This document shows positions 11,832-15,342 of a stretch of 15,342 bases of DNA, one piece after another. Made by a program: the position numbers and the translations under genes. Origin of the DNA: an uncultured Dorea sp. (GTDB taxonomy: Bacteria > Bacillota > Clostridia > Lachnospirales > Lachnospiraceae); assembly GCA_934295165.1 (NCBI GenBank), contig CAKRAT010000050.1, positions 1-15,342 of the forward strand, written 5' to 3'. Each line of letters opens with the position of its first letter. Within the stretch, counting starts at the first letter, position 1. The notes under the pieces are model-generated. The model had not been told where the DNA came from. It ran no database searches and worked only from the letters and a program-made list of their open reading frames with translations.

Positions 11832-11843
11832 ATCTTAAAAAAG

Positions 11844-11876
11844 AACCCCCGGGGAGATGTTTTCCCGGGGGTTTTT
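11844..11876 (+). terminator. Strong intrinsic terminator of the Ala/Gly symporter gene
   Basis: CCCCCGGGG (11846-11854) pairs with TCCCGGGGG (11863-11871), one pair being G-U, flanked by AA/TT. Five T follow the stem (11872-11876). It lies 12 bases after the symporter stop codon. Confidence 0.95.
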
Positions 11877-11910
11877 GCTATTTGATTTATTATCTTGGCT
11901 TACCCCGGTC

Positions 11911-12126
11911 CATGAGAAAGACTTGGTGTTTTGTTTGTTGCTGGATGTCACGATGCAGATGTTCTAAGACAGTCCGCCTTCCCTAAGGGCGAAAGACACT
12001 CCGCTCAAACTCGGCGTGTGCCTCAAACAGTTCGCTCAGTGTCTTTAACGGGAAGTCGAACTATCTAAGAACATCTACACATCGCGCCAAAATACGCATC
12101 AAACAAAACACCAAGTCTTTCTCATG
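11911..12126. repeat. Large palindromic element with 27-bp perfect terminal inverted repeats
   Basis: The first 27 bases (11911-11937, starting CATGAGAAAG) are perfectly complementary to the last 27 (12100-12126, ending CTTTCTCATG). Pairing resumes inside: AGATGTTCT (11957-11965) with AGAACATCT (12068-12076), CTTCCC (11978-11983) with GGGAAG (12050-12055), and AAAGACACT (11992-12000) with AGTGTCTTT (12038-12046). This leaves a 37-nt apical loop (12001-12037). On the minus strand two C/A mismatches between the arms become G-U pairs, so a minus-strand RNA folds better. There is no ORF and no clear target-site duplication. It occupies most of the 331-base gap between two converging genes. It is likely a MITE-like repeat or structured RNA; I cannot identify a named family. 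Confidence 0.85.
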
Positions 12127-12162
12127 TCGTGATTGGCCAATGATAATAAATTTAACAGCGAA

Positions 12163-13041
12163 TTATTTATCATAATCCTCCGAACAAACGCTGATCCCCA
12201 TTCCATATCCCTTAGGTCCGATATGACATCCTACACTGAATGAAAGTGGGTCATAGTATACATAAGAATTCGGGAATGCTTCTACAAGCATCTGTTTCCA
12301 TTCTGCGGCTTCTTCCCCGGTGAGGTTAGAACCAGCAGCACCTACCAGGATATGCTTGTCATCTGTATCTTTAAAACGTGTTTCACGGTCGTTCTTCAAT
12401 GCTTCGACCATCTTCTGCTTGCACTTCTTCATGCCGCGTGTCTTGGCAAAGGCATCCAGCTTGCCGCCCTGGATTGTCAGGATTGGCTTGATGTTCAAAA
12501 CGCTTCCAAGCGCTGCACCGGCAGCAGTAACACGTCCGCCTTTTTTCAGAAATTCAAGCGTATCAACGGCGATATAGATGCTGGAGTTGTAAGCTTCGGC
12601 CTCTAATACTTCTTTGATCTCTTTTGCTGATTTTCCGGCATCAGCAAGCTTCTTGGCATGCATGACAGATTCTCTCTGGGTAACGGAAATTCTGTGATTG
12701 TCAGCAACCTGTACTTTGCCATCATAATCATCGGAAAGGCTGATGGCTGTAGAGCAGGAAGCACTCAGTCCGCTGGACATCGGGATGTGGATGATCTCAT
12801 CATAACCCTGCTCGAAGATATCATCCCAAAGATCCATCAGGTCTCCAGGAGAAGGCTGGGATGTGGATACATTCTTTCCGCCTGTCAGGCTTCCGTAGAA
12901 AGAATCTTCGGTAAGATCGATTCCTTCATAATGTGTCTCGTCGTTGATAATGACTGGCATAGGAATCAGAAAGATCCCCATCGAGTCAGCTTCTGCTTTC
13001 ATAATTCCGCTGTTGGTATCTGTCATAACAGCTGTTTTCAT
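12163..13041 (-). CDS. DegV family protein, probable fatty acid-binding FakB-like subunit
   Basis: DegV/FakB proteins bind a fatty acid and present it to the kinase FakA for phosphorylation, feeding exogenous fatty acids into phospholipid synthesis. This 292-aa cytoplasmic protein has the family landmarks: an N-terminal TDTNSGI strand-loop, TSQPSPG (60-66), the MSSGLSAS turn (88-95), FLKKGGRV followed by a GAALGSVLNIKPIL segment, and a C-terminal HIGPKGYG with His273. It departs from its neighbour at VADNHRIS, where most family members have a D-S pair (DS). AAGGAGG on the minus strand (13051-13057) 9 bases before the ATG at 13041 sets the start. It lies 71 bases downstream of the other degV-like gene, with the same orientation, so co-transcription is likely. 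No fakA is in the window. Confidence 0.9.
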   Translation of the reverse strand: MKTAVMTDTNSGIMKAEADSMGIFLIPMPVIINDETHYEGIDLTEDSFYGSLTGGKNVSTSQPSPGDLMDLWDDIFEQGYDEIIHIPMSSGLSASCSTAISLSDDYDGKVQVADNHRISVTQRESVMHAKKLADAGKSAKEIKEVLEAEAYNSSIYIAVDTLEFLKKGGRVTAAGAALGSVLNIKPILTIQGGKLDAFAKTRGMKKCKQKMVEALKNDRETRFKDTDDKHILVGAAGSNLTGEEAAEWKQMLVEAFPNSYVYYDPLSFSVGCHIGPKGYGMGISVCSEDYDK

Positions 13042-14236: not shown

Positions 14237-15211
14237 ATGAAGATAGAAGAAAGTATAAAAAAATATGCAGATATAGAACAAGAAAATGTAATAGCAAAGG
14301 ATAAAATGCAGATTCTGTATGATTGCACATTATGTCCGCGAAACTGCCATGTGGACCGCATTGCAGGACAGCGTGGAAGATGTCATGAGACGGCGGAAAT
14401 CGTGGCAGCAAGGGCTGCGCTCCATATGTGGGAAGAACCCTGCATATCGGGCAAGATGGGCTCAGGAGCAGTATTCTTTTCCGGTTGTTCCATGGGCTGT
14501 ATCTTCTGCCAGAATCATAATATAGCCGAAGCAAAGGCGGGAAAGGTAATAACGGTAAAAAGACTGTCCGAAATATTTCTGGAACTTCAGGGAAAAGGAG
14601 CAGCTAATATTAACCTCGTGACACCGACACATTATGTTCCACAGATTGTAAAAGCACTGGATATAGCAAGAGAAGCTGGTCTGGTCCTTCCGGTTGTTTA
14701 TAATACAAGCGGTTATGAAAAGCCGGAGACAATGCAGATGCTGGATGGCTATGTGGATGTCTATCTTCCGGACTTTAAATATATGGAACCAGATCTCGCA
14801 GCAGCATATTCCCACGCTCGGGATTATCCGGAATACGCCAAAGCATCCATAAAAGAAATGGTTCGTCAGACAGGAAATATCCAGATTAACAAAGAAACGG
14901 GAATGATACAAAAGGGCGTGATCGTAAGACATCTGGTTCTGCCGGGACATGTGAAAAATTCCAAAGCAGTCCTAAAATACCTGCTCGAAACATACCGGGA
15001 TCAGATACTGATCAGCATCATGAACCAATACACCCCGATGCCGCAAGTAGCAGAAGACCCATTGCTCAGCCGCAAAGTTACAAAAAGAGAATACGAAAAA
15101 GTCATAGACTATGCATTAGAACTGGGAATGGAAGACGGATTCATTCAGGAAGGTGAAGCTGCGAAAGAAAGCTTTATACCGGAATTTGATTTAGAGGGGA
15201 TTGGGATTTAA
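14237..15211 (+). CDS. Radical SAM protein of the PflX / PFL-activase-like family (COG1313)
   Basis: This is a predicted oxygen-sensitive iron-sulfur enzyme (324 aa) that cleaves S-adenosylmethionine to a radical; its substrate is unknown. The radical SAM cluster motif CxxxCxxC is CSMGCIFC (C84, C88, C91), followed by QNHNIA. Upstream is a second cysteine group, CTLCPRNC (C30, C33, C37) plus C49 in GRCHE, typical of the PflX subgroup and able to hold another metal site. Later conserved parts include NLVTPTHYVPQI, VYNTSGYE and DVYLPDFKY, then LVLPGH. The frame starts at ATG 14171, without a ribosome site; ATG 14237 has AGGGA 6 bases upstream and a more usual N-terminus; ATG 14306 is also possible. 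No glycyl-radical enzyme is nearby, so it is an orphan activase-like protein. Confidence 0.88.
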   Translation: MKIEESIKKYADIEQENVIAKDKMQILYDCTLCPRNCHVDRIAGQRGRCHETAEIVAARAALHMWEEPCISGKMGSGAVFFSGCSMGCIFCQNHNIAEAKAGKVITVKRLSEIFLELQGKGAANINLVTPTHYVPQIVKALDIAREAGLVLPVVYNTSGYEKPETMQMLDGYVDVYLPDFKYMEPDLAAAYSHARDYPEYAKASIKEMVRQTGNIQINKETGMIQKGVIVRHLVLPGHVKNSKAVLKYLLETYRDQILISIMNQYTPMPQVAEDPLLSRKVTKREYEKVIDYALELGMEDGFIQEGEAAKESFIPEFDLEGIGI

Positions 15212-15234
15212 TTTATTAACTGTGGATCGGCCTC

Positions 15235-15342
15235 TCAGTCCTTGAAGGAAACAATAGATAAAGCTTCTTGTTCAGGTTCCATACCATAAGAAACACTAAG
15301 AGAGTCAGAATCACCTAAAAGCAAAGGAACTACGCTCAAACT
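15235..15342 (-). CDS. Probable C-terminal fragment of an unidentified gene (partial)
   Basis: On the minus strand a frame is open from the window's right edge to a TGA at 15235-15237, 35 codons. It ends YGMEPEQEALSIVSFKD, a protein-like composition. It would converge on the radical SAM gene, with only 23 bases between the stops. Codon choice is richer in T-ending codons than the neighbouring genes. No family is recognisable from so short a piece, and an open frame of this length can arise by chance. Confidence 0.4.
   Translation of the reverse strand, partial: SLSVVPLLLGDSDSLSVSYGMEPEQEALSIVSFKD

Follow-up and report, generated by a model that had tools for sequence, protein, structure and literature searches.

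A palindrome in DNA from an uncultured Dorea sp. is one copy of a non-coding repeat of about 290 bases that is dispersed round the chromosomes of some gut bacteria. We consider it about 70% probable that this family is a non-autonomous, MITE-like foldback transposon with a conserved core. On this reading the unit would be moved in trans by a transposase that acts on its tips, in the lineage of the window as elsewhere (the window being the whole stretch of 15,342 nucleotides that was analysed). From copy to copy the outer arms change in sequence but remain mirrored, and the inner arm, core and apex are kept, as is seen in two related genomes, G062 and G374, where arm symmetry would be restored mainly by template switching during replication. 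The conserved core may be a recognition or stability device that the unit needs in order to spread or that the host tolerates. The window copy, which lies between convergent genes, after the terminator of a symporter gene and at the stop codon of a DegV gene, is most likely without a regulatory function of its own.

The palindrome and the repeat unit

The structure described in the original prediction, with perfect terminal arms of 27 bp, inner stems of 9, 6 and 9 bp and an apical loop of 37 nt, was recovered in full between positions 11911 and 12126 (Table 1). The arms extend to 31 nt at 97% if one mismatch is allowed, and the nested stems lie at 11957-11965 / 12068-12076 (9 bp), 11978-11983 / 12050-12055 (6 bp) and 11992-12000 / 12038-12046 (9 bp). 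On the minus strand the loop contains TTTGAG twice and begins with GAGCG, as had been noted; a second GAGCG, which had been placed at the end of the loop, lies near the end and not at it. The minus strand folds at -115.9 kcal/mol (z -13.5) and the plus strand at -97.9 kcal/mol (z -11.8), and none of 200 shuffles was as good for either strand. No open reading frame of 80 aa or more lies inside the palindrome, in agreement with the claim that it encodes no protein.

The 216-bp palindrome is therefore real and folds beyond shuffled sequences, but it is not the full element. An additional imperfect arm pair of 21 nt lies outside it and its flanks are common to the copies of relatives, and because of these two features we take the repeat unit to be 289 bp long, extending from the T-tract of the symporter's terminator-like hairpin to the DegV stop codon. 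Part of a second copy lies between about 15210 and the right edge of the window, which cuts it off; the core part of this copy is matched with E 0.00099 by R1, a covariance model built from 19 core modules, the window copy included.

Two weak promoter-like sites, at 11889-11918 (minus) and 12119-12147 (plus), score 9/12 each, have identical hexamers and point outward from the ends of the 27-bp arms; four promoter-like sites were found in the region, where 1.4 were expected.

Table 1. Features of the repeat unit and its surroundings in the window.
Feature	Position	Strand	Basis and remarks
Whole repeat unit, 289 bp	11874-12162	- (structured strand as modelled)	Arm extension, flanks kept in G140 copies, outer inverted repeat; adjoins DegV stop (gene 12163-13041, minus)
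Outer imperfect arm, left	11874-11894		Pairs with 12142-12162, 81%
Outer imperfect arm, right	12142-12162		Inverted repeat with 11874-11894
27-bp perfect arm, left	11911-11937		Inverted-repeat search
27-bp perfect arm, right	12100-12126		Inverted-repeat search
Conserved core hairpin	11958-12075	-	Covariance model R1, 105.4 bits; window copy among the 19 modules from which R1 was built
Apical loop, family motif UGUYUGAG ... GAGUU	12001-12037	-	Alignment of core modules
Internal asymmetric loop, 5' side (CGUU)	12044-12053	-	Invariant columns in 19 modules
Internal loop, 3' side	11981-11995	-	Mostly GCUUUUAG in the family, CGCCCUUAG in the window copy
Second family copy, cut by window edge	15210-15342	-	Core part 15290-15342; begins at stop codon of radical-SAM gene
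Terminator-like hairpin after Na/alanine symporter gene	11841-11876	+	Unit starts in its T-tract

Distribution of the family

Homologues of the palindrome exist in the Lachnospiraceae. With the 216-bp palindrome as blastn query (E 0.001), three of 397 genomes of the bacterial family matched, two of them over just 29-31 nt, and among these 397 genomes whole copies were found only in G140. This sister genome is the closest one met, its DegV being 97% identical to that of the window and the surrounding DNA 83-90%. It has nine full-length matches (1-216) at nine places, with identities of 67-87% (five at 85-87%, three at 71-72% and one at 67%). When the best 150 of 743 candidates were scored with R1, at least 33 full-length core matches were obtained in G140, each with E 2.7e-15 or better, several of them copies that had also served to build the model. 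In 17 other near genomes, with up to 150 candidates scored per genome, R1 gave no match at E 0.1.

Scans of the bacterial family and class, in which nine candidates per genome were scored under strict filters so that presence and copy number are lower bounds, placed the core in at least 24 of 397 genomes of the family and in at least 4 of 391 genomes of the class. The latter include G140, and the other three are weak (33-42 bits); the weak copies that were inspected have an apex similar to that of the family. The dispersed copies carry no transposase gene, for which the units are too short. Some G140 copies overlap open frames of 73-123 aa, and in four regions inspected by eye the genes between distant copies were only ordinary-looking ones.

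Tips and target duplications

Units in G062 and G374 carry the tip GTWACAGTTCAC at one end and its complement at the other. Perfect 8-bp target duplications flank 12 of 34 candidate tip pairs and a 7/8 duplication flanks one more, all 13 of them in these two genomes; many of the 34 are chance pairs at up to four mismatches per tip, and the tip-anchored test was made after duplications had been seen by eye in the same two genomes. Nine of the 13 tip pairs that lie 287-290 bp apart have 8/8 duplications and the other four have 6, 6, 1 and 0 of 8, one of these four (L211) having a repeat shifted by one base. The units with perfect duplications measure 91, 202, 238, 287, 289 (seven units) and 290 bp. 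In a control with right flanks taken from other rows, 8/8 was reached in 0.18% of 1122 pairings, and the two pairings concerned come from two of these same loci, each through its second row. The perfect 8-bp duplications show that the units transpose in G062 and G374. An automatic duplication search over 77 elements gave 9 cases at 7/8 or better against 10, 2, 4, 0 and 2 in offset controls, and so proves nothing alone.

The tips of the G140 and window units are ATTTAAT-like and differ from those in G062 and G374, and this difference between genomes counts against the foldback-transposon reading. No convincing target duplication was seen at the G140 copies or at the window copy. Terminal inverted repeats are present in both groups, as the tips in G062 and G374 and as the inverted outer arms of the window unit. 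Among the tip places listed in G062 and G374, inspection by eye revealed no autonomous element of IS length with the same tips. Of the ideas offered originally, that of a MITE is the best supported, by the scattered copies, by their inverted ends and, in two related genomes, by 8-bp duplications; the window copy itself would be mobile by extension from its relatives.

The conserved core

The 19 aligned core modules have invariant positions in the asymmetric internal loop, with CGUU on one side, and in the apex. RNAalifold predicted 36 pairs, of which 31 show two-sided changes, and 95.5% of the cells in the alignment are paired. Covariation among the copies is very strong, with a score of 0.816 against 0.218 in shuffles, and none of 500 shuffles reached it. 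In 8 of 9 modules it is the minus strand that folds better. Stems that covary and loops that are conserved are also features of the structured RNA families of Rfam 15, but stem covariation is not specific to RNA.

Two mismatches that become G-U pairs on the minus strand had been taken as a hint that a minus-strand RNA structure is kept. In the cores of G140 and the window (29 distinct rows of 35) we counted 40 G-U against 5 A-C wobbles, in 13 columns versus 3, one invariant U-G pair being left out of this and the following count. In the other genomes (28 of 30 rows distinct, two being opposite-strand duplicates) the counts were 19 against 21, in 12 columns versus 6. The hint thus holds for G140 and the window and fails in the other genomes, and since the excess is confined to G140 and the window it is limited to that lineage. 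Several apices, among those listed, contain GCGAAGC, which is an unusually stable DNA mini-hairpin.

Evolution of the arms

Arms were compared in nine units of exactly 289 bp with the motif, out of 13 units cut out in G062 and G374. The outer arm (positions 13-62) has a mean pairwise identity of 0.63 and a minimum of 0.22, and 98% of its positions are Watson-Crick with the mirror base and 1.6% are G-T or A-C; in the inner arm, core stem and apex the identity is 0.91-0.93. Over all pairs of the nine units there are 697 double against 74 single mirror changes, counts that are not independent, and the closest G374 pairs show 34 double against 24 single changes. A different picture is seen in the window lineage, where the window unit differs by 2 double and 8 single changes from one G140 copy (L093) and by 2 double and 11 single changes from another (L094). 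Arms in G140 and the window are also less perfect, with 421 other mismatches to 1836 Watson-Crick positions. G-U and A-C are balanced in the outer arms, at 81 versus 78 in G140 and the window and 54 versus 63 in the others, and show no strand preference.

Template switching in replication can create and maintain hairpins, according to excerpts of PMC8794818. We give roughly even odds to the view that arm symmetry in G062 and G374 is restored mainly in this way, with one arm serving as template for the other when the DNA is replicated, and for the outer arms in these genomes template switching, together with selection on the loops, is the likelier cause. Arm copying is not visible between the window and G140, where single changes outnumber double ones and the arms are less perfect; these observations, and the frequent single changes among the closest G374 pairs, speak against it. 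Nor does it account for the conserved loops or for the surplus of G-U in the G140 cores. As compensated changes can arise from DNA-level copying of arms (PMC8794818, in the same excerpts), strong covariation alone is not proof of RNA, and palindromes of near-constant length that keep their pairing while losing their sequence offer a test case for RNA function against arm copying in DNA.

Genomic context and orientation

Flanking-gene counts were based on crude ORF calls with composites merged and IS110 neighbours included. Of the 54 flanking ORF ends that face the elements in G140 and the window, 46 are 3' ends, and 27 of the 46 lie within 13 bp of the unit edge; the corresponding figures for the other genomes are 43 of 87, with 18 within 13 bp. 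The earlier view of the element as an intergenic repeat therefore holds, mostly at gene 3' ends in G140 and at both gene ends elsewhere. Among the 28 cases in the other genomes in which both neighbours are co-oriented, the structured strand is antisense in 19 (p 0.09). Relative to replication, 9 of 10 core matches in G062 are oriented alike (binomial p 0.02), the axis being set by dnaA at base 1 (by eye) and a sign change in GC skew between samples at 3.15 and 3.5 Mb. A hand count of G140 single units, assuming an origin at base 1, put 7 of 13 in that orientation.

At the G140 site that corresponds to the window unit, inspection by eye showed an opposite-orientation remnant beside a transposase-like stretch, and at the site of the window's second copy an outer frame that has collapsed and lacks the inner hairpin. 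In the genes next to seven G140 loci (L087, L092, L097, L098, L185, L187 and L198) the final codons and the stop seem to come from the unit tips, so that the C-termini end in SI.

Alternative explanations

A structured non-coding RNA family, in which the minus-strand RNA folds, the apex and internal loops bind a protein, selection on RNA keeps the pairing and transposition is secondary, is an unlikely account of these data. The high pairing and two-sided changes of the core, its invariant loop motifs, the better folding of the minus strand, the surplus of G-U over A-C in the cores of G140 and the window and the dominance of single changes between the two all favour it, but the strand asymmetry is absent in other genomes, the compensated changes are also produced by DNA-level arm copying and orientation to the flanking genes is not clear-cut. 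Nor is there an Rfam match at gathering score, and the best hit of the permissive scans, a plant miRNA precursor, reached 58 bits where its cut-off is 211. The RNA function originally suggested is weakened accordingly: the covariation that speaks for it is very strong, but arm copying can compensate and the G-U excess does not extend beyond the G140 lineage. A folded 3' region or terminator of the DegV transcript, the remaining idea of the original prediction, is very improbable. The unit does adjoin the DegV stop, and the minus strand is the DegV strand; a scan of that strand gave no terminator-like site, the remnant at the G140 site is reversed (by eye), and elsewhere the unit adjoins many other genes.

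REP hairpins and plasmid single-strand origins work as single-stranded DNA hairpins, and the core could likewise be a device that works when one strand is single, on the lagging strand, in conjugation or at a rolling-circle stage. We find this quite improbable. Co-orientation with replication in G062 and the GCGAAGC of several listed apices agree with it, but the orientation would not be repeated by the G140 single units if the origin there is at base 1, the weak antisense bias to genes could give the same pattern, and 8-bp duplications point to a transposase that makes staggered cuts. It is possible, if rather doubtful, that the core is a portable nucleic-acid device, which a protein of the host or of the transposon recognises in its folded, single-stranded form and which rides on transposable palindromes with different tips; the arms would then be free to change if mirrored and kept in length, and the working form would be the full-length rod with its loops at fixed distances.

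Comparison with known repeats

Under the preferred reading, that of a MITE-like foldback transposon, the family resembles bacterial MITEs such as ERIC, Correia/NEMIS and YPAL as portrayed in excerpts of two reviews (PMC2229807, PMC10969869), in being small and non-autonomous, with inverted-repeat ends, target duplications, intergenic or 3' sites and transcripts that would form long stem-loops. It departs from them in that its unit exceeds the 100-200 bp given in the excerpt of PMC2229807 and its duplication is of 8 bp. Further differences are the near-constant length with hypervariable mirrored arms in G062 and G374, and an asymmetric internal loop and apex that are conserved and common to units with different tips. 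That such a core is conserved although the ends of the units differ calls for a search for its protein partner in this major group of gut bacteria. Units of REP are far shorter than those of the hairpin family, which differs from REP/BIME also in its 8-bp target duplications. It shares with REP/BIME, as presented in part of PMC2817692, the extragenic palindromes and the alternating orientation in composites, seen here as ten minus-then-plus core pairs in G140 (hand count), several of them joined by a third palindrome (by eye).

The hairpin family was not found in Rfam or in the literature searched. Rfam 15 at gathering score gave no match in the window or in six viral loci, and a known RNA family was rejected as matches under permissive scans were far below cut-offs; no paper on the family was among those listed in literature searches whose scope left out preprints and most subscription journals.

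Insertion sequences and phage contigs

Three G140 loci with such core pairs (L186, L190 and L197) carry an IS110-family element, 98.8-99.5% identical between them, at an equivalent position between their two hairpin units, and a similar fourth locus (L192) is without it; the L190 copy has PF01548 and PF02371. This recalls the IS elements that target repeats (PMC1525189, in part). The hairpin repeat may be the target site of IS110, and nothing shows that IS110 moves the repeat. IS66 is present in four of five genomes checked and absent from G140. The one complete IS66 that was delimited (L360, 2924-5840) has the ends GTAAGCGCCAAGT and an 8-bp duplication, GTATCTTA; these ends differ from the unit tips GTWACAGTTCAC, which speaks against IS66 as partner or source.

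A phage or plasmid origin of the window copy was also rejected, as it gave no blastn match and its exact arm pattern occurs in no viral contig. A G062 unit had no match among plasmids and matched the phage contig MT837089.1, from human stool, over half its length. This unannotated contig contains a good core hairpin (L343, 2516-2629; E 4.9e-18), and the stretch matches no plasmid. Exact copies of the 19-nt apex motif TGTYTGAGCGAAGCGAGTT are present in 60 viral contigs (L283-L342), of which about 52 fall by eye in three recurring contexts with other structures; R1 gave just two weak matches on these contigs (E 0.25 and 0.66). In some of them TGTYTGAGCGAAGCGAGTT caps other hairpins. In recurring contexts it lies in or near phage genes, which were inspected in nine of the 60, and some of these genes look by eye like replication and Zot-type genes.
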